Source: an uncultured Fodinibius sp. (GTDB lineage Bacteria > Bacteroidota > Rhodothermia > Balneolales > Balneolaceae). From it: 64,000 bases of DNA. Positions 2,863-14,331 of this stretch are shown in pieces. The translations under genes were made by a program, and so were the position numbers. The first letter of the stretch is position 1. Each line of letters opens with the position of its first letter. The DNA lies in the NCBI GenBank assembly GCA_913056235.1, contig CAJXMW010000005.1:248001-312000 (forward strand), given 5' to 3'. The notes under the pieces were generated by a model. The model was not told where the DNA came from. It ran no database searches and was given only the letters and a program-made list of their open reading frames with translations.

Positions 2863-3969
2863 ATGGCACAGTTTCCAAACGAGACAAGGCAGAAAGCCAA
2901 CACCGATCCACAGCTATTAGTAAAGCAGTGGAGAAATCTGAATCAGGAAAAGTATATAAAGTCTGAACTTGGGCTACAGGCCGATGGCATTTTGCAGGCC
3001 ATATTCAACAGCCAGTACAACGGTATTCCGGCTAAAGTTTTTAAAAATGAGATCCCATTTGGACTAGAGCCCGACACGGCGGTCGAAAGTTGGCGCGGAC
3101 TTGAGCTTATTGGCGGCATGATTGCCGATGTCATCAACTATAATTATCTGATTGCCTTCCCATTCAGCATGTGGAAGCCCAACGATCAGGCGATATATGC
3201 CTCTGACCGCATAGACAGCGGCAATGTACTTGGCGTTGATTTTACGGATGTATCGATGCCGTTAAGTTTTATGCCCGATGCGTATTTTGCCAACTGCAAG
3301 TTCGACAAGTCGAACCTTAACCGGTCGGTCGTTGTAGGGGCTTTATTCGAAGATATCACCGTATTTGACAGCAACTTAAAAGAATTGAGTGGTCTGGATA
3401 GCACCAATCAAGACCCGGTATATTTTGGGAATTCCTGGTTCCGTGACAGTATTCTTACCGGCTCTCGAATGAATATGCTTATTGAAACATGCACATTTGA
3501 GGGGTGTCGTTTCGATCACATGGTTGGGTATAATGACGCAGGAGCGTTATTGGTTATCAAAGACGGATCGACTGTAGATGATTGTCACTTTGTAAGCGCT
3601 GAAATTAGCCCAAGATGTAACCTGGATAAAGGCGGTTATCAAATCATCAACAGTTATTTCAACAAAGCCATTATTGAGAATGCTGTGAAGCCGCCGCAGA
3701 TGGCGAATATTATTAACTGTGAGTTTGATAATGCTGTTATAACCGATGCAACGATTTACGGCGATTTTACCGACAACAGCATGCGAAATGTGGAGTTCAA
3801 GAACAGCATAAACTTTGCTACGGATACGGCTTTTCCCGATCTGCCGGATATCGCAGGGACCAACTTTGAAGGCTCCAATATTGATGATTTCTACACGCAG
3901 CAAGAGCTGAAAAACGCAGTAGGAAATTGGAACTCCAACACGATCTGGGTAGATGGCACCCCCTTTTAA
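2863..3969 (+). CDS. Beta-helix / pentapeptide-like structural protein
   Basis: The protein has 368 residues. From about residue 120 to 330 there are repeated short units with a hydrophobic or aromatic centre, of the type A(N/D)(C/L)xF, for example ANCKFDKSNL, GALFEDITVF, ETCTFEGCRF, DDCHF and INCEFDNAVI. This is typical of pentapeptide-repeat or right-handed beta-helix folds. The C-terminus (about 335-368) is different and ends in a small polar segment. Such folds are common in phage spikes and fibres. No enzymatic motif is visible. It lies within the structural operon upstream of the DGR target. Confidence 0.65.
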   Translation: MAQFPNETRQKANTDPQLLVKQWRNLNQEKYIKSELGLQADGILQAIFNSQYNGIPAKVFKNEIPFGLEPDTAVESWRGLELIGGMIADVINYNYLIAFPFSMWKPNDQAIYASDRIDSGNVLGVDFTDVSMPLSFMPDAYFANCKFDKSNLNRSVVVGALFEDITVFDSNLKELSGLDSTNQDPVYFGNSWFRDSILTGSRMNMLIETCTFEGCRFDHMVGYNDAGALLVIKDGSTVDDCHFVSAEISPRCNLDKGGYQIINSYFNKAIIENAVKPPQMANIINCEFDNAVITDATIYGDFTDNSMRNVEFKNSINFATDTAFPDLPDIAGTNFEGSNIDDFYTQQELKNAVGNWNSNTIWVDGTPF

Positions 3970-4420: not shown

Positions 4421-4560
4421 TGGGTGCTGCAAATGTACTACGGCTGCGAAAATTTAAAGTTGGCAGAAGCCGAGTGGGCGGTTCGTATAACATAAACCGC
4501 ATTCAGCCCACAGAAGGCGTGGAGTACTCAAAAATTGGAATAAATTTTAGAATACAATGA
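4420..4560 (+). CDS. 46-residue basic protein, overlapping both neighbours
   Basis: ATG 4420 shares its A with the upstream stop (TAATG). The stop TGA 4558-4560 overlaps the downstream ATG 4557 (ATGA). This double stop/start overlap and the exact fill of an otherwise unexplained 136-base gap are the evidence that it is a gene. The product is small and basic in its first half (RLRKFKVGRSRVGGS) and ends KIGINFRIQ. It has no membrane segment and no recognised family. A structural or DNA-binding minor protein is possible. Confidence 0.65.
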   Translation: MGAANVLRLRKFKVGRSRVGGSYNINRIQPTEGVEYSKIGINFRIQ

Positions 4561-5179: not shown

Positions 5180-5539
5180 ATGGGAGCATTGACCAACACG
5201 AAGAAGTTTTTAGAGCAGATTAAGTCATGGGTAGAGAAGGAATTTAAAGATGCGGCCTATACCAGTAGCGTAACAACCGGCCAAAAGACGGTAACCGCCA
5301 CCCCTGCTGCACTCTTTGCAGGAGGGAGCGAAATGAGCGGCCGCGTTCGCATGCTTGTGCGCAACGATAGTACCGACATTCGCATGCGATACGGCACCGC
5401 TCAAAGTAACCTGCAAGAAAATGGCTATCCCATCGAGCCCGGCGAAGAAAAAGAATTTGTTTTCGACGCCGATACTAGCCAAACGATTTACGGCGTAAGC
5501 GAAGGCGGCGAAGTGCCGGTCTTCATCGAAGAAAAATAA
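5180..5539 (+). CDS. Small structural-type protein, amphipathic helix plus beta domain
   Basis: The protein has 119 residues. An N-terminal helix-like segment (TKKFLEQIKSWVEKEF) is followed by a compact beta-rich domain with RVRMLVRNDSTDIRMRYG. It ends acidic (VPVFIEEK). It shares its layout with the proteins at 2459 and 3992. It lies 2 bases after the previous stop. The 61 bases after it hold short repeats of the type CTGACNGCTGACN. No family is recognised; a virion accessory role is inferred from context. Confidence 0.6.
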   Translation: MGALTNTKKFLEQIKSWVEKEFKDAAYTSSVTTGQKTVTATPAALFAGGSEMSGRVRMLVRNDSTDIRMRYGTAQSNLQENGYPIEPGEEKEFVFDADTSQTIYGVSEGGEVPVFIEEK

Positions 5540-5855: not shown

Positions 5856-7022
5856 ATGAGACTTATTGAAAAAGACAAAGACATTCGCGGCATTGAGCTG
5901 GCACTAACCCGCCGCGCCCACGAAGTAGCTGACTTTGGCATCACTGACGCCACCGAACGCCGCAACTGGCGCGAACGCATCGAAGAAGCCAGCGACGGCC
6001 GCAACACGGTAAAATACAACAAAGAAAATATGCCCGGCATCTATGTGCGAATGCCTAGCAAGCGACAATCGGCACTGGACAGCCAGTTTCCCGACCAAAT
6101 TCACCCGGCTTTTATCGTCAACAGTAACATTTACGACGAGTTCTTACCGGCGAAATACCAAGGCTACCGCGTGGATAAAAACGGCACCAAATATGCGCTT
6201 TCGCTGCGTGGTGTAAACCCCACGGTGAACATTGACTTTGACGAATCGGTTGCCGCCTGCGAAAATAACGCCGCAAATGGATTTCACCTTATCAGCAATG
6301 CCGAATGGAGCTTCATAGCCCTGTACAGCATGATGCAAGGCTTTGAGGCGCGTGGCAACACGAACTACGGTAAAAGCCACGAACGCGGTGACGAAACAGG
6401 ACGTCCCGCATCACAAGATACCGGCAGCGGCGACATTGACCGCACCAAGACCGGCAGCGGCCCGCGAGCATGGAGTCACGACGGCTCGCCTTATGGTATT
6501 TTCGATATGGTTGGCAACGTCCGCGAATGGTGCGGCGGCTTCCGGCTTGACGGCGGCGAAATACAAGTCATTGCCGACAACGACACCGCCGACGGCCAAA
6601 CCGATCAATCAGTGAATGGACCGTGGAAAGCGATATTGCAAGATGGTAGCCTGGTAGCGCCCGGCACGGCCGATACGTTAAAATATGACGCCACAGCGGC
6701 CGACGGCGGCAACGCGCAACTTGATATTAAGATTGATAACCAGCTTGCCGGTGGCGATAATACCAATAATTATTTTGATAGCACAGAAGTTGATGGGGCT
6801 GTGACGGTGCCCGATCTAGCAAAATTGTTGTGTATCTACCCTACCAGCAAGGCGTTTAGTAATGGTCGGATATATACTAGAAACTATGATGAGCGGTTGT
6901 GTTACCGTGGCGGCCGCTGGGGCTACGGCTCCGCTGCGGGCTTGTTGTACTCCCACTTGTCTAACGGCCGTGGCTATTCGCGCTCGGGTATCGGTTTCCG
7001 TCCTGCTTATGTCAATCTGTAA
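5856..7022 (+). CDS. DGR target protein with C-type-lectin / formylglycine-enzyme-like domain
   Basis: The protein has 388 residues. Residues about 60-388 carry the CLec-type fold used by many DGR targets (FGE-sulfatase/SUMF1-like). Seen are GFHLISNAEWSF (about 145-156), a TGSGPRAWSHDGSPYGIFD stretch (about 200-218), GNVREWCGG (about 222-230) and the C-terminal RGGRWG...GFRPA block. The last 39 or so codons are the variable repeat (6894-7008). It is probably a receptor-binding or surface-display protein whose ligand-binding face is diversified. The N-terminal 55 residues are charged and may form the attachment region. It is followed by avd, TR and the RT gene. Confidence in the DGR-target role is high; the ligand is unknown. 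Confidence 0.93.
   Translation: MRLIEKDKDIRGIELALTRRAHEVADFGITDATERRNWRERIEEASDGRNTVKYNKENMPGIYVRMPSKRQSALDSQFPDQIHPAFIVNSNIYDEFLPAKYQGYRVDKNGTKYALSLRGVNPTVNIDFDESVAACENNAANGFHLISNAEWSFIALYSMMQGFEARGNTNYGKSHERGDETGRPASQDTGSGDIDRTKTGSGPRAWSHDGSPYGIFDMVGNVREWCGGFRLDGGEIQVIADNDTADGQTDQSVNGPWKAILQDGSLVAPGTADTLKYDATAADGGNAQLDIKIDNQLAGGDNTNNYFDSTEVDGAVTVPDLAKLLCIYPTSKAFSNGRIYTRNYDERLCYRGGRWGYGSAAGLLYSHLSNGRGYSRSGIGFRPAYVNL
6894..7008 (+). repeat. DGR variable repeat (VR)
   Basis: These 115 bases at the 3' end of the target gene align without gaps to TR 7411-7525 (offset 517). I count 18 mismatches, and every one lies at an adenine of TR (A to T, C or G). All 89 non-adenine positions are identical. 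The last 19 bases (ATCGGTTTCCGTCCTGCTT) are identical in both, as expected for the initiation-of-homing end. Homology stops 11 bases before the stop codon. Confidence 0.97.
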
Positions 7023-7045
7023 TCTGAAAATTTTGGGAATCTGTT

Positions 7046-7384
7046 TTGTCTGAAAAATTGAAAATATATCAAAAGGCCTACGATATGGTACTGTTTTCGT
7101 ACCCGTGGCTAAAGAATTTTCCCAAGGCTGAGCGACATACCTTGGTGGCGTCGATCAAGAAAAGCATGTATCGCGTGCTGGAACTGATAACGAAGGCACA
7201 AAAGGCACGAAATAAGGAACGGTACCTGTACGGCCTTGATACCGAATTAGAGATTCTAAGCTCTAAGGTTCGGCTGGGTGCCGAATTGCAGTTTCTGCCT
7301 ATTAAAAAATACGGCAAATGGTCGGACCGGCTCGAAGAACTTGGAAAAATGCTAGGCGGCTGGATAAAGCAATGCACAAACTAA
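7046..7384 (+). CDS. avd: Avd, DGR accessory variability protein
   Basis: The protein has 112 residues. It opens KLKIYQKAYDM and continues with a YPWLKNFPKAERHTL block, then helical segments rich in Lys/Arg/Leu. This is the pattern of the small basic four-helix-bundle Avd proteins that bind DGR reverse transcriptase and template RNA. The start is TTG 7046; the first ATG (7085) would remove the conserved N-terminal helix, so TTG is preferred. It lies 23 bases after the target stop and 26 bases before TR, the classic target-avd-TR-RT order. Confidence 0.88.
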   Translation: MSEKLKIYQKAYDMVLFSYPWLKNFPKAERHTLVASIKKSMYRVLELITKAQKARNKERYLYGLDTELEILSSKVRLGAELQFLPIKKYGKWSDRLEELGKMLGGWIKQCTN

Positions 7385-7410
7385 TTACAACCATAGGGAA
7401 CAGTTTGTTA

Positions 7411-7525
7411 CGGATGTGTAACCGTGGCGGCAACTGGAACAACGGCTCAAATGCGGGCTTGTTGTACTCCAACTTGAATAACGGCCGTGGCAATTCGAAC
7501 TCGAATATCGGTTTCCGTCCTGCTT
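7411..7525 (+). repeat. DGR template repeat (TR)
   Basis: This 115-base non-coding template lies between avd and the reverse transcriptase. Read in the VR frame it contains 11 AAC/AAT codons among 26 adenines; 10 of the 11 are altered in VR. AAY codons can mutate at both adenines without creating a stop codon. Eighteen of the 26 adenines differ in VR and no other base does. The template is transcribed on the + strand in the same direction as the RT. Confidence 0.97.
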
Positions 7526-7683
7526 TTCACACCGCCAGAAGGTTGTTGGTTACGGCCAGCAATCCAGTGCATAGTAATAAGGAAACTGTTTCCACTCTGC
7601 GAGAGCAGCGAAAAACACAACCAGCCGGGGAGGTTTGTCATCACCCACATGGCATATCAAGCCCGGCACTTTTTTTAATAATC
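7526..7683 (+). ncRNA. TR-RT spacer, probable structured part of the DGR RNA
   Basis: These 158 bases between TR and the RT start have no convincing gene of their own; one frame is open only because it is in phase with the RT. They contain small inverted repeats: GGAAAC-T-GTTTCC at 7581-7593 and CTGC-GAGA-GCAG at 7597-7608. A T-run (7671-7677) lies just before the RT start. In the Bordetella phage DGR a downstream spacer of similar size primes and templates cDNA synthesis with RT and Avd. Assigning that role here is inference from position and length. Confidence 0.55.
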
Positions 7684-8742
7684 ATGATTCTATTAGAACA
7701 CATATTTGACTTTGAGAACCTGTATCAGTCGTACCGAGAAGCCCGTAAGGGGAAGCGGTACAACAATGAAGTGATCCGGTTCTCTCGACGCCTGGAACAA
7801 AATCTTATTCAGCTTAAAAATGAGCTGATGTGGGATGAGTACCAGCAGGGTGACTACCGCGAATTTTATGTAAACGAACCGAAAAAGCGGCTGATTATGG
7901 CCTTGCCCTTCCGTGATCGCGTGGCGCAGTGGGCTATTTATCGTCAGTTGTATCCGATGTACGACCGTAAGTTTATCTACGATTCGTATGCGTGTCGCAT
8001 TGGCAAGGGTACCCACAAAGCCTTGCAGCGAATCAAATATTGGATTAACGGCAAAGGTGAGTGGTATTACCTGAAATGCGACGTAAAGAAATTTTTCTAC
8101 CGGATTCATCACAATACGCTTATCGATCGGTATAAGAAGCATGTGAAAGATGAGCGCATTGTGGATCTGTTAGCCCACATCATTAAAGCCGGTGACGGTC
8201 AAATGGGCGTCGTAGCACAGGCCGACGATTACGATAAGCGTGTTACCGGTCGGGGTATGGCCGTGGGCAACCTCATTAGTCAGCTCAGCGCCAACGTATA
8301 TATGAATGCGCTTGATCAGCATGTAAAACACACGCTTAGAGCAAAATATTACGCCCGTTACATGGATGACATGCTTGTTATCCACAAGTCGAAAGATCGG
8401 CTGTGGGAAATAAAGGATATGATCGAAAATTTCCTAGACGAAACTCTGCGGCTTAATCTGAATAACAAGACCGCCGTTCGCAAGGTGCGCGACGGTATTG
8501 ATTGGGTCGGCTTTCGGACGTATCTCACACATATTAAGCTGGCGAAGAAAACCGCCAAACGGATGAAGCGCAGCATCAAAGCCGTGGCAAAGAAGCTGTT
8601 TACAGGACATATATCAGAATCGAAGTATTACAGCGTGGTAGCATCGTACATGGGCATGCTCAAGCATGCTGACTGCTACCAGCTTAAGCAATCGATAAAA
8701 CGAATTATTCAAAAACAGAAAAACCAATATGCCGTCGTTTAA
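7684..8742 (+). CDS. DGR reverse transcriptase
   Basis: The protein has 352 residues from ATG 7684. The frame stays open further upstream, but that part is TR and spacer. RT motifs are clear: CDVKKFF with the first catalytic Asp (132-138), GNLISQ (195-200), the DGR-type motif 4 region that differs from group II intron RTs, and the catalytic YMDD (226-229). A basic thumb region follows, WVGFRTYLT then a Lys/Arg-rich tail. The enzyme makes adenine-mutagenised cDNA from TR and transfers it to VR. The 3' end overlaps the transglycosylase gene by 14 bases. No endonuclease or maturase domain is present, as expected for a DGR. Confidence 0.96.
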   Translation: MILLEHIFDFENLYQSYREARKGKRYNNEVIRFSRRLEQNLIQLKNELMWDEYQQGDYREFYVNEPKKRLIMALPFRDRVAQWAIYRQLYPMYDRKFIYDSYACRIGKGTHKALQRIKYWINGKGEWYYLKCDVKKFFYRIHHNTLIDRYKKHVKDERIVDLLAHIIKAGDGQMGVVAQADDYDKRVTGRGMAVGNLISQLSANVYMNALDQHVKHTLRAKYYARYMDDMLVIHKSKDRLWEIKDMIENFLDETLRLNLNNKTAVRKVRDGIDWVGFRTYLTHIKLAKKTAKRMKRSIKAVAKKLFTGHISESKYYSVVASYMGMLKHADCYQLKQSIKRIIQKQKNQYAVV

Positions 8743-9358
8743 GCAGTCTGTACTAGAACATTTAGATCACGCTCGACAGTTAGGGCTTTTTCCGGTGTAT
8801 AAGTCAGCGGCTAAAAAGTACGATATTCCCGTACAGGTATTGCTAGCCAAAGATTCCCGCGAAAGCTGGCTGGGTAGCTATCCCGATTTGGCGTCCAATG
8901 ATTGGTACGGCAGCGACGGCAAGAGCCGTGGTATTTCGCAGATTAATACCGACGTGTACCCGCAGGCCGTGATGGTGGACGGCGATGCTCACAAGTGGTT
9001 TATCATGCGGGGAGCGCAGCTATTGCGCAAGGAATTGGACAATTTTGACGGCAATATGAAAGCAGCATTGGCGGCCTATAATACCGGCACCGAGGACGTG
9101 CGCAGTGCCCTACAGCAGGGTAAGAAGCCCAACAGCGTAACCACCGATGGCAATTATGTAAGCGACGTGCTGCGGCGGGCTGATATCATCAAAAAGGATT
9201 TAAGCATGATTAACAAGGTCTTGCCTATTGTGGGCAGCATGCAGGCGGGATTCCAGGGCAACGTCAAAGAAGCCGCGCTGCAATCCATACCGGGGCTGCT
9301 CATCTTGTCGGCCGGCGCCTATTTCGTTAAAGATTTAATCGACCAAAAAACAGAGTAG
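8729..9358 (+). CDS. Membrane-anchored lytic transglycosylase (SLT-like)
   Basis: The protein has 209 residues. The N-terminal two thirds form a lysozyme-like SLT domain: catalytic Glu45 in DSRESW, GISQIN (68-73, matching the GLMQI-type motif) and AALAAYNTG (112-120). Residues about 185-203 are a hydrophobic, alanine-rich segment (IPGLLILSAGAYFV) followed by a charged tail, so the enzyme is probably held in a membrane by its C-terminus. It would cleave peptidoglycan glycan strands. There is no signal peptide. A virion-associated entry enzyme is more likely than the main endolysin, because a separate lysis cassette lies downstream. The start overlaps the RT gene. Confidence 0.85.
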   Translation: MPSFKQSVLEHLDHARQLGLFPVYKSAAKKYDIPVQVLLAKDSRESWLGSYPDLASNDWYGSDGKSRGISQINTDVYPQAVMVDGDAHKWFIMRGAQLLRKELDNFDGNMKAALAAYNTGTEDVRSALQQGKKPNSVTTDGNYVSDVLRRADIIKKDLSMINKVLPIVGSMQAGFQGNVKEAALQSIPGLLILSAGAYFVKDLIDQKTE

Positions 9359-11294: not shown

Positions 11295-11649
11295 CCAAAT
11301 TATCAGCTGGATAACGAGTAAATTCAAATGGCTTAGTCGTAACCTGGACACATGGAAGTTTTACGGCTTGCTAATGAGTATTGGCGGCCTCATTACATGG
11401 TTTACCTATTCGTTTAGCACAGAGTTGCGAAGGGATACCATGTACTTTTCCGACTTTGGGCTGATCCTGCTTTTTATCGCTATCTGCGTGGGCACCTACC
11501 ACGCATTTGATGTATTCATTCTCAAAGACATTGACACCATAAACGAAATCAAAGGTCATGGAGAAAACAGCCAAGGAAATATCTCTCTGGGACTGCTGCT
11601 TGTGGCTCTGGCTATTGTTATCCTTGCCGGTGCTATCACCGTCAGCTAA
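11281..11649 (+). CDS. Putative holin-like membrane protein
   Basis: The protein has 122 residues with three predicted membrane segments (about 29-47, 58-78 and 98-120) and a short charged N-terminus. It overlaps the previous gene by 14 bases and contains the start of the next gene, a peptidoglycan-hydrolase-like protein, inside its own coding region. Three membrane segments placed directly before a secreted hydrolase match the usual holin-endolysin order. The role is assigned from topology and position, not from a recognised holin family. Confidence 0.55.
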   Translation: MKKLNQIISWITSKFKWLSRNLDTWKFYGLLMSIGGLITWFTYSFSTELRRDTMYFSDFGLILLFIAICVGTYHAFDVFILKDIDTINEIKGHGENSQGNISLGLLLVALAIVILAGAITVS

Positions 11650-12154
11650 TGCACAGCGTCCCGCACATGTTGACACTGCTCTTACTTATTTTGGCCGCAA
11701 AGAAGTAGAACAGGAAAACCACGGGCCGGATATTGAAAAATTCCTAGCTTCTGTAGGGTTGGAAGAAGGGTATCCATACTGTGCAGCATTCGTCAGCTAT
11801 TGTTTAGAGCAGCCCCAAAAAGATATACAATTGCCACGAGTCCGCAGCGCCCTGTCCACCGATTTCATTACCGACCGTTCCATTGACGCCAAAAAAGTAC
11901 TGCGCGGTCAAGTGACGGTTCCGGCCGGTGCTATCCACATTATGCCCAAAGGCGAAACCGGCAGCGGCCACACTGGTTTTGTGCTAAAAAAATGGACCGG
12001 CGCAACTGGCCTGGTGATCGATGCCAACACCAGCACTGGGCTTGAAGGCACTTCCGAGCGCAACGGGCAAGGCGTCTGGATTCGACAGCGCCAAATATAC
12101 TCTAGCTGCTACTTTTGCATTAAAGAATTTACGTTGGTTCGATATGAAGATTAA
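11558..12154 (+). CDS. Secreted CHAP-like peptidoglycan hydrolase (putative endolysin)
   Basis: The protein has 198 residues. A Sec signal peptide (about 1-32, with LLLSLPVLSPSANA before a likely cleavage) is encoded inside the preceding membrane-protein gene in another frame (92-base overlap). The mature part has a CHAP/NlpC-like pattern: catalytic Cys in YPYCAAFVSYC (about 73-83), His in SGHTGFV (about 136-142) and DANTS (about 154-158) as possible third site. It would cut peptide bonds of peptidoglycan after export. It sits between a holin-like and a spanin-like gene. The fold call is from these motifs only. Confidence 0.68.
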   Translation: MEKTAKEISLWDCCLWLWLLLSLPVLSPSANAQRPAHVDTALTYFGRKEVEQENHGPDIEKFLASVGLEEGYPYCAAFVSYCLEQPQKDIQLPRVRSALSTDFITDRSIDAKKVLRGQVTVPAGAIHIMPKGETGSGHTGFVLKKWTGATGLVIDANTSTGLEGTSERNGQGVWIRQRQIYSSCYFCIKEFTLVRYED

Positions 12155-12833
12155 ACTAACTCATATACTGGGAATCCTTTTTGTTTTTGTACTGCTTGTG
12201 GCCGGGAATGTGTGGCAATATCAGAACCCGGAAGTAGTAAAAGTTCCAGCAGACCAAACCAAGATCGATTCCACGGCTTGGGTGCAGCAAAGCACCTACA
12301 TGGCACGCCAACTGCTGATTGATAGCCTTAGAGCGGAAAATGAGAAGCTTGCAGAAAAGATTGAGCAGTCGCAGGACAAAATTGCTAATTATACGTCGAT
12401 CATTGGCCGGTTGCGTATCGAAAACGATTCCCTTAAGAATGAGCCGGTGAACATAGCCGACCTGTTCACCTTTGATACTACGGTCACCCGCAACACGCAA
12501 CCCGCCGATTTAAACGTGATGGATACCACGCTCACTTTCCAGCAGACCTTTTCCGATTCGCTGTTCCGGGTAAAAAGCAATGTATCATTTAACTGGCCGT
12601 ACCTGGATAATGAGCTGCATTTGTCCCAGCAGCGGCCTATCAACATTGATGTGGTGAACACCTTTAACGACGATCGATCTCGCATGTTGACCTATGTTAC
12701 CAGTCCCGATTTTGACAGTCTGCGGTATAAAAGCTATACCGAGCTGCAACCGAAAGACGAGCTGCCCAAGTTCTGGATTGGTGCCGGTACGGGTGTTGCA
12801 GCAACGTTGGTAGGAATTATACTGATTAACTAG
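12144..12833 (+). CDS. Membrane-anchored periplasmic coiled-coil protein, spanin-like
   Basis: The protein has 229 residues from ATG 12144. Upstream in-frame codons only mirror the hydrolase gene in another frame. One N-terminal membrane segment (about 7-23) is followed by a coiled coil (about 45-95), a beta-rich domain, and a hydrophobic C-terminus (FWIGAGTGVAATLVG). This matches inner-membrane spanin (Rz-like) layout and position after holin and endolysin candidates, though it is longer than most. It overlaps the upstream gene by 11 bases. Its stop overlaps the stop of the convergent integrase by the palindrome CTAG. Confidence 0.55.
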   Translation: MKIKLTHILGILFVFVLLVAGNVWQYQNPEVVKVPADQTKIDSTAWVQQSTYMARQLLIDSLRAENEKLAEKIEQSQDKIANYTSIIGRLRIENDSLKNEPVNIADLFTFDTTVTRNTQPADLNVMDTTLTFQQTFSDSLFRVKSNVSFNWPYLDNELHLSQQRPINIDVVNTFNDDRSRMLTYVTSPDFDSLRYKSYTELQPKDELPKFWIGAGTGVAATLVGIILIN

Positions 12834-14056
12834 TCGCTTTTCTTATCCATTTTGCGCTGCTTTTCCAGTAGCCGTTTCCCTCTTAAATGCGTGTACTTAT
12901 CGGTTTGGCTACTCCGCGAATGACCAGCCATAAATTGGGCTTCCGATGTATTATAACCATTCTCTAACCAGCTTGTAATACGTTCGTGCCGCATGCCGTG
13001 CAACGTCCGCTCAGACGGCAAATTTGCCAGCTTCAAATAATGCTTGAATTGCCGATACGCCCGTTCGCCGGTCACGGGGTACCCTTTGCGCCGGCCGCCC
13101 TGGTAGATGAATAGATAGTCATTGTATCCCACCTCTCCCCTTCGCTCTAAATACTGCTCTACCAACTTCCGGCACGGGTCAGGCACGGGAATGGCCCGCT
13201 CGTTGGGTCCTTTGGTCGTTGAAAGATAGATCATTTCCAGCCGGTCGTTCTCGAAATACAAATTTTGTCCCTGTAGACCGGAATAGTCAATATCACTTTT
13301 ATAAGCGGCTTCATGTTTGCGAAGTCCACAATAAAAATATATTGATATCAACGGCTTGAACCAGTGCTGGACTTGACTTTCGTCGTACTCTTGCCGCTCT
13401 TTTTTGCGTTCCAACTCCTTATCAAAAGTTGTAAACAGCTTTTGCAGCTCCTGTTCCGACATCATTTTGGACTTGGTATTACTTCGCTTTTTGGGCAAAT
13501 CTTTTTTGATATCCGGAAAGAAATTGCGGTCCACAATGCCCCAGTCGATCAGCTTATTCCACCATACTCGCAGCTGCTTAAAATAAAAGTGGCGCGTGGC
13601 GGGTTTAATGCCGGGTTTGAATATCACATTATCGAAGTGCTGCTGACGAACCATTAACGGCGATAGCCCCGCAATATCGTTTTTGGTGATAAAGTGTTCT
13701 ATAGCCCGTTCATACGCCCCGGAATTGTCAAGCGTCCTATTTTTGGGATTGCGTATAGTGGCGTTGGATAGATGGGATTTACGCTGGTAAAAATAGTCGG
13801 CGGCCTGACGAACAGTATTGATATTGAGCTTTTTGTCGCTGCTGTTTAGCTCTTTTAATACGTGCTTGGGATCGAAGTCTTTATGGTAGGGATCTATTGC
13901 GCCCTGGCCTTCAAGTTCTTCCAATGTGTCAAGGGCTTTTTCGGCCTCTTTCTTGTACTTGATGCCTAAGCTCTTGACGTTCTCCCGTCGTTCTCCATCC
14001 TCTGTTTTAAAAAATTTAATGTAGTAGTACTTTCCGCGCTTCTTGAGTGATGCCAT
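12830..14056 (-). CDS. Tyrosine recombinase integrase (tRNA-Pro type)
   Basis: The protein has 408 residues. The N-terminus (1-45) has an arm-binding-type segment, about 75-180 a core-binding SAM-like domain, and about 195-395 the catalytic domain. Catalytic residues are visible: Arg246 (CGLRKHEA), Lys282 (TTKG), His353 and Arg356 (HGMRH), His379 (GHS) and nucleophile Tyr388 (KYTH). It is convergent with the lysis genes and lies 202 bases from the 3' end of tRNA-Pro, so it most likely inserted the element into that tRNA. Repeats of two types lie between its start and the tRNA. Confidence 0.93.
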   Translation of the reverse strand: MASLKKRGKYYYIKFFKTEDGERRENVKSLGIKYKKEAEKALDTLEELEGQGAIDPYHKDFDPKHVLKELNSSDKKLNINTVRQAADYFYQRKSHLSNATIRNPKNRTLDNSGAYERAIEHFITKNDIAGLSPLMVRQQHFDNVIFKPGIKPATRHFYFKQLRVWWNKLIDWGIVDRNFFPDIKKDLPKKRSNTKSKMMSEQELQKLFTTFDKELERKKERQEYDESQVQHWFKPLISIYFYCGLRKHEAAYKSDIDYSGLQGQNLYFENDRLEMIYLSTTKGPNERAIPVPDPCRKLVEQYLERRGEVGYNDYLFIYQGGRRKGYPVTGERAYRQFKHYLKLANLPSERTLHGMRHERITSWLENGYNTSEAQFMAGHSRSSQTDKYTHLRGKRLLEKQRKMDKKSD

Positions 14057-14234: not shown

Positions 14235-14257
14235 TCTGAAAGCTCACAATAAACAAG

Positions 14258-14331
14258 TCGGGACGACTGGATTTGAACCAGCGACCCCTCGACCCCCAGT
14301 CGAGTGCTCTACCTGGCTGAGCCACGTCCCG
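14258..14331 (-). tRNA. tRNA-Pro (anticodon GGG)
   Basis: A full cloverleaf of 74 bases including discriminator A. The acceptor arm is CGGGACG/CGTCCCG, the D-arm GGCTCAG...GAGC, and the anticodon arm CTCGA with loop CTGGGGG and TCGAG (anticodon 14297-14295). The T-arm contains GGTTCAAATCC. CCA is not encoded. Its 3' end faces the left element's integrase, so it is the probable insertion site, and the gene remains intact. Confidence 0.95.

Follow-up and report, generated by a model that had tools for sequence, protein, structure and literature searches.

The diversity-generating retroelement (DGR) of the Bordetella phage BPP-1 acts on the protein Mtd, which is located on the tail fibres of this tailed phage. 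Salisaeta icosahedral phage 1 (SSIP-1, NC_017983) is a tailless, membrane-containing phage. A global DGR survey discusses structural targets in the Caudovirales (PMC8144416), and the targets of phage DGRs have been described as usually being tail parts (PMC10743442), generally receptor-binding proteins associated with the tail. In TaqVP, the variable protein of a Thermus aquaticus prophage DGR, the VR is reported to span residues 341-381 within a C-type-lectin fold, the variable residues being exposed to the solvent (PMC6328139). A search of titles and abstracts in the open-licence literature returned none that described a DGR from a tailless phage; we do not claim the present one as the first.

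Here we describe a DGR found in 64,000 nt of DNA (the window, whose numbering is used below unless a contig is named) of an uncultured Fodinibius sp. (assembly GCA_913056235.1, contig CAJXMW010000005.1, positions 248,001 to 312,000; our contig G000:C5). In our judgement the locus is very probably a complete DGR of the TaqVP/BPP-1 layout, residing where an integrated tailless phage of the SSIP-1 type has its host-recognition slot, and hypermutating a displayed protein. The DGR itself is intact and of a known kind; it is the setting, an SSIP-1-like tailless provirus, that is new.

The cassette is encoded on the forward strand with all frames intact, in the gene order of BPP-1 (target-Avd-TR-RT). 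The target gene (5856-7022) specifies a 388-aa DGR variable protein of the FGE-sulfatase/C-type-lectin-fold type, matched by PF03781 (2e-7; Pfam) and phrog_2889 (2.5e-99; PHROGs). It aligns with TaqVP (PDB 5vf4) over nearly its full length (phmmer, 3.3e-69 across residues 37-386), VR against VR stretch, and a Foldseek match to the same structure (2.5e-14), based on a low-confidence model (pLDDT 46.5), adds little beyond this sequence match. Judged by homology, the VR sits in a target of the C-type-lectin type. The Avd gene (7046-7384; 112 aa, TTG start) was identified by NF033474 DivGenRetAVD (111.4 bits, above the NCBI equivalog cut-off of 80) and PF22296 bAvd (8.6e-29; Pfam). The RT (7684-8742; 352 aa) matches RVT_1 (1e-25) and phrog_1423 (1.4e-130) and contains the motifs CDVKKFF, VGNLISQ (GxxxSQ type) and YMDD (YxDD type). 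Its best PDB match, ranked above group II intron RTs, is 8ub7 (8.5e-42), which we take to be the Bordetella DGR RT, the entry in the structure table reading simply "Reverse transcriptase". The start of the RT was set at the ATG at 7684. An open frame of 474 aa beginning at 7318 is probably not the RT gene, because it runs through the TR; within 7318-7683 the TR is open in the RT frame and encodes the same residues there as in the target frame.

The VR (6894-7008; codons 347-385, at the 3' end of the target gene) and the TR (7411-7525) form the sole long direct repeat between positions 4500 and 10000 (repeat finder; 115 nt, 84% identity, spacing 517), and no extra copy of either was found in the 3.97-Mb genome. 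When the two were compared base by base, all 18 mismatches fell on TR adenines (n=26), the other 89 positions being identical (p=3.3e-15 for 18 randomly placed mismatches all lying on adenines). The replaced adenines appear in the VR as G (7), C (6) or T (5), and the final 20 bases of both repeats, considered with respect to an initiation-of-mutagenic-homing element, are identical. Read in the target frame, the differences fall in 12 codons and alter 11 amino acids; 10 of these alterations occur at Asn (AAY) codons. The TR is AAY-rich in this frame, a stop is reachable from none of its 15 A-bearing codons, and its theoretical repertoire amounts to about 4e14 protein variants.

An IMG/VR search with the target alone retrieved no relatives; these emerged through the search with the RT, which led to eight loci whose target, Avd and RT are all homologous (in one, L015, the contig end cuts the RT), each with a VR/TR pair of 108-120 nt. 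In these cassettes 88 of 90 mismatches lie at a TR adenine, the exceptions being one in Bacillus phage BalMu-1 (L011) and one in L014. Just 3' of the TR, at 7541-7564 on the forward strand, there is a hairpin (CAGA-stem-loop-stem-CAG), presumably part of the DGR RNA, which folds in the window copy. Across nine homologous cassettes 85.6% of the cells of its 10-bp helix are paired, two-sided changes occur in 9 of the 10 pairs, and covariation reaches 0.894, compared with 0.277 for shuffled and at most 0.236 for slid alignments. Since this helix covaries, the region from TR to RT is probably a structured part of the DGR RNA; the hairpin copy considered here is intact.

A sequence-only reading of this DNA had listed all parts of a DGR in canonical order with intact frames, the three RT motifs, and a 115-bp VR/TR pair mismatched solely at TR adenines. 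Target, Avd, TR and RT, as well as the motifs, are present as it described them, and our recomputation of the repeat pair agrees with it to the base. Its interpretation of the pattern as the signature of adenine-mutagenic retrohoming is strengthened by the homologous cassettes, which repeat it, and the check that it proposed, placement of the RT in the DGR clade, gave the expected outcome both in the PDB search and in a tree, where the RT groups with TR/VR-bearing cassettes. In this tree it joins BalMu-1 (support 90/80), within an 11-row set of the same cassette type (98/93). Proteins encoded upstream of six such cassettes (L011, L013, L014, L015, L027 and L040) match tail or baseplate families, those of L018 match minor head and, weakly, tail families, and those of L016 only an unknown family; capsid-type homologues of the element studied here were absent from the examined flanks of the related loci. 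Because related cassettes neighbour tail or baseplate genes and the RT nests among them, the simplest and most likely reading is that a tailed phage was the source of the cassette.

The carrier is flanked by an exact 45-bp repeat, one copy of which (14257-14301) lies in the 3' end of a tRNA-Pro gene (14257-14331) adjoining the integrase gene, the other lying 26.5 kb to the left of the window (G000:C5:221476-221520); the provirus therefore extends over 40.8 kb. Its genes for a tyrosine integrase (12830-14056, reverse strand; phrog_1, 1.4e-40) and an endolysin-like protein of the lysis module (11558-12154, forward strand; phrog_21825, 1.8e-9) were found with PHROGs and Pfam, as were genes for a repressor, a DNA methyltransferase, a primase/helicase, a transglutaminase-like protein, an ATPase/ParB protein and a transglycosylase. 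The same scan, which covered every ORF longer than 350 aa and all but a few of the short ones, revealed no terminase, portal, HK97 capsid or tail genes, the sole tail-family matches being weak ones from coiled-coil and lysis ORFs. The earlier assignment of a complete DGR to a prophage is supported, the att repeat delimiting the provirus; the description of the locus as a clean new example was right about the completeness of the DGR and missed the nature of its carrier.

In a translated search of 50,697 phage records, SSIP-1 was the top match for two structural candidates of the element. The proteins annotated as structural in SSIP-1 include gp34, gp40, gp41 and gp45-48, and direct comparison yielded homologues of gp34 (5e-30) and of the gp38 primase (6e-21). 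A 1017-aa protein with a ddrB-like ParB domain (G000:C5:245084-248137, ending at window position 137) fuses homologues of gp40 (ATPase; 5e-28), gp41 (3e-10) and the gp43 C-terminus (7e-10) around this domain. It is followed, on the forward strand, by genes for a structural protein resembling gp45 and its paralogue gp46, the candidate major capsid protein (1001-1621; blastp 1.9e-13 to gp45 and 4e-7 to gp46; tblastn 4e-8 against the entire phage collection), a gp47-like structural protein, the candidate second capsid protein (1716-2456; blastp 1.4e-14), and a gp48-like structural protein (2459-2860; 3e-5 to gp48, about 1e-6 to the gp48 counterparts encoded in other proviruses). The structural genes are collinear with those of SSIP-1; the primase gene is displaced.

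We infer that the adjacent gp45/46- and gp47-like proteins are the two capsid proteins; the carrier is very probably an SSIP-1-like tailless provirus. The capsid-type proteins are just 23-27% identical to their SSIP-1 counterparts; a single-sequence model of the gp47-like protein had a pLDDT of 34, and profiles matched no solved capsid. The resemblance of a 119-aa ORF (5180-5539) to gp48 (E 0.016) is a lead at most. Small proteins encoded before the ATPase have hydrophobic C-termini by eye, which would suit a membrane virion, but with one alone passing a strict hydropathy cut we give this no weight. IMG/VR searches with the 1017-aa protein, and with the capsid-type proteins of this element, of its closest relative (G007) and of a second provirus in the same genome, found no relatives; SSIP-1 gp47 matched a contig of 43,788 bases at 100%, presumably SSIP-1 itself.

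Related SSIP-1-like proviruses share a succession of genes (ATPase/ParB, gp44-, gp45-, gp47- and gp48-like) that leads into a variable stretch and ends with a gp54-like transglycosylase. Large proteins that differ from one provirus to another are encoded in the variable stretch, and those scanned (411-763 aa) have no Pfam family above the cut-off. In our element the slot begins after the gp48-like gene and ends at a gp54-like lytic transglycosylase gene (8729-9358, forward strand; 38% identity, 7.5e-29; SLT, PF01464), and it holds a pentapeptide-repeat protein (2863-3969, forward strand; PF13576), small ORFs and the DGR. The pentapeptide protein resembles proteins at the same position in two other SSIP-1-like proviruses (3e-18 to L096 and 2e-16 to L098). 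The closest relative (L095, G007:C4:155001-175000), with 65% identity in the integrase, 64% in the ATPase/ParB protein, 67% in the endolysin-like protein and 50-67% in most lysis-region genes, has a single 526-aa ORF in place of the DGR. The slot between gp48 and gp54 may thus represent a host-recognition locus.

Among 394 genomes of the phylum, the gp47 family profile detected 19 loci, spread over 15 genomes, and a search of these 15 for the RT at 1e-8 gave G000:C5 only. A gp45-like protein was found in 15 of 98 related genomes; the phage group to which it belongs has a single named isolate in the phage collection searched. The genome studied here contains two more SSIP-1-like proviruses or remnants (G000:C1:430884-432296, L101; C1:1264626-1266039, L100), which belong to a different subgroup and have no DGR in the stretch examined. 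In G067:C1 (L096:8946-10037) a glycosyltransferase gene, possibly concerned with surface modification, stands beside the gp54-like gene of another SSIP-1-like provirus. DGR-like loci with the RT placed before Avd were noted in two genomes of the same order (L102:8712-11342 in G062; L103:2165-4790 in G084); their repeat pairs measure 183-189 nt (85-86% identity, spacing 2442-2443 nt), and no SSIP-1-like structural genes were seen nearby.

The intact parts and the heavily rewritten VR suggest that the DGR is currently active. RNA transcribed from the TR, with its conserved 3' hairpin, would be bound by RT and Avd; cDNA synthesis would place random bases opposite template adenines, and the cDNA would replace the VR by retrohoming. 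This would rewrite about 11-14 surface residues of a virion protein with a C-type-lectin fold. Because of its position in the slot and the type of target, this protein is most likely displayed on the virion as a vertex spike that substitutes for a tail fibre, where rewriting may let the phage change its receptor. We consider it probable that the DGR passed from tailed phages to a membrane-containing lineage without tails and hypermutates a vertex spike there. If so, DGR-driven tropism switching does not need a tail, the SSIP-1 group has its receptor-binding protein slot between gp48 and gp54, and targeted hypermutation is a module that works in virions of unrelated architecture. Provided that the provirus works, tailless phages too could rapidly reinvent their recognition of bacteria.

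Taking into account that the cassette is present in a single copy, that no close relative carrying the same cassette was found, and that no DNA hairpin was folded within the 80 nt 3' of the VR, one might regard it as a decaying passenger, no longer mutagenic, with a VR fixed long ago. This is unlikely, as the three genes, the TR, the VR frame and the RNA hairpin are all intact, and none of the 89 non-A positions is mutated despite changes at 18 A positions; TR-templated rewriting would therefore be more recent than background drift. We think it rather more doubtful that the target is a secreted or cell-surface factor of the lysogen: its FGE-sulfatase domain, and the small unnamed ORFs that separate it from the gp48-like gene, would suit such a role, but its gene stands between structural and lysis genes, the cassette is packed tightly against the gp54-like gene, and phage homologues of the target adjoin tail genes, some being annotated as antireceptor.

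The remaining explanations concern the carrier. No family could be assigned to many ORFs of the element, most of the related cassettes that we checked belong to tailed phages, lytic transglycosylases also occur there, and the coiled-coil ORFs do give weak tail-family matches, all of which would agree with an ordinary DGR in a tailed prophage (Caudoviricetes) so divergent in its head and tail genes that PHROGs and Pfam miss them. Nevertheless, no ORF above 350 aa encodes a terminase, portal or tape measure protein, and the homologues of SSIP-1 structural gp34, gp40, gp41 and gp45-48 appear in similar order, which makes a tailed prophage very improbable. It is still harder to credit an assembly chimera that joined a tailed-prophage DGR to an SSIP-1-like element. 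Only one element with this combination is known to us, and the GC content of the target gene is 0.53 against about 0.46 in its surroundings; but SSIP-1-like genes lie on both flanks of the cassette inside a 424-kb contig, the 3' end of the RT gene overlaps the start of the gp54-like gene by 14 bp, and the RT and spacer match the rest of the element in GC content.

The SSIP-1-like provirus with a DGR in its variable slot thus combines features of several described systems. With SSIP-1 it shares homologous, mostly collinear genes for the primase, ATPase, transglutaminase-like, structural and transglycosylase proteins; SSIP-1, however, has no homologues of the RT, Avd or target, and its gp48-gp54 slot is filled by gp49-gp53. 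The DGR of BPP-1 is alike in gene order, adenine-specific rewriting, Avd family and, via 8ub7, RT family, but it belongs to a tailed phage, whereas no tail genes were detected in the present element. The RT of BalMu-1 is the nearest one both by search of the phage collection (50%) and by position in the tree; the BalMu-1 cassette has a homologous target and Avd and VR/TR mismatches at adenines but one, and differs in having baseplate genes upstream. The Thermus aquaticus prophage DGR encodes a target, TaqVP, that is about 35% identical to ours and homologous over nearly the whole length, with the VR at the extreme C-terminus, and it is described as having the same arrangement, i.e. avd between target and TR, the RT last, and an AAY-rich TR (5vf4; PMC6328139).
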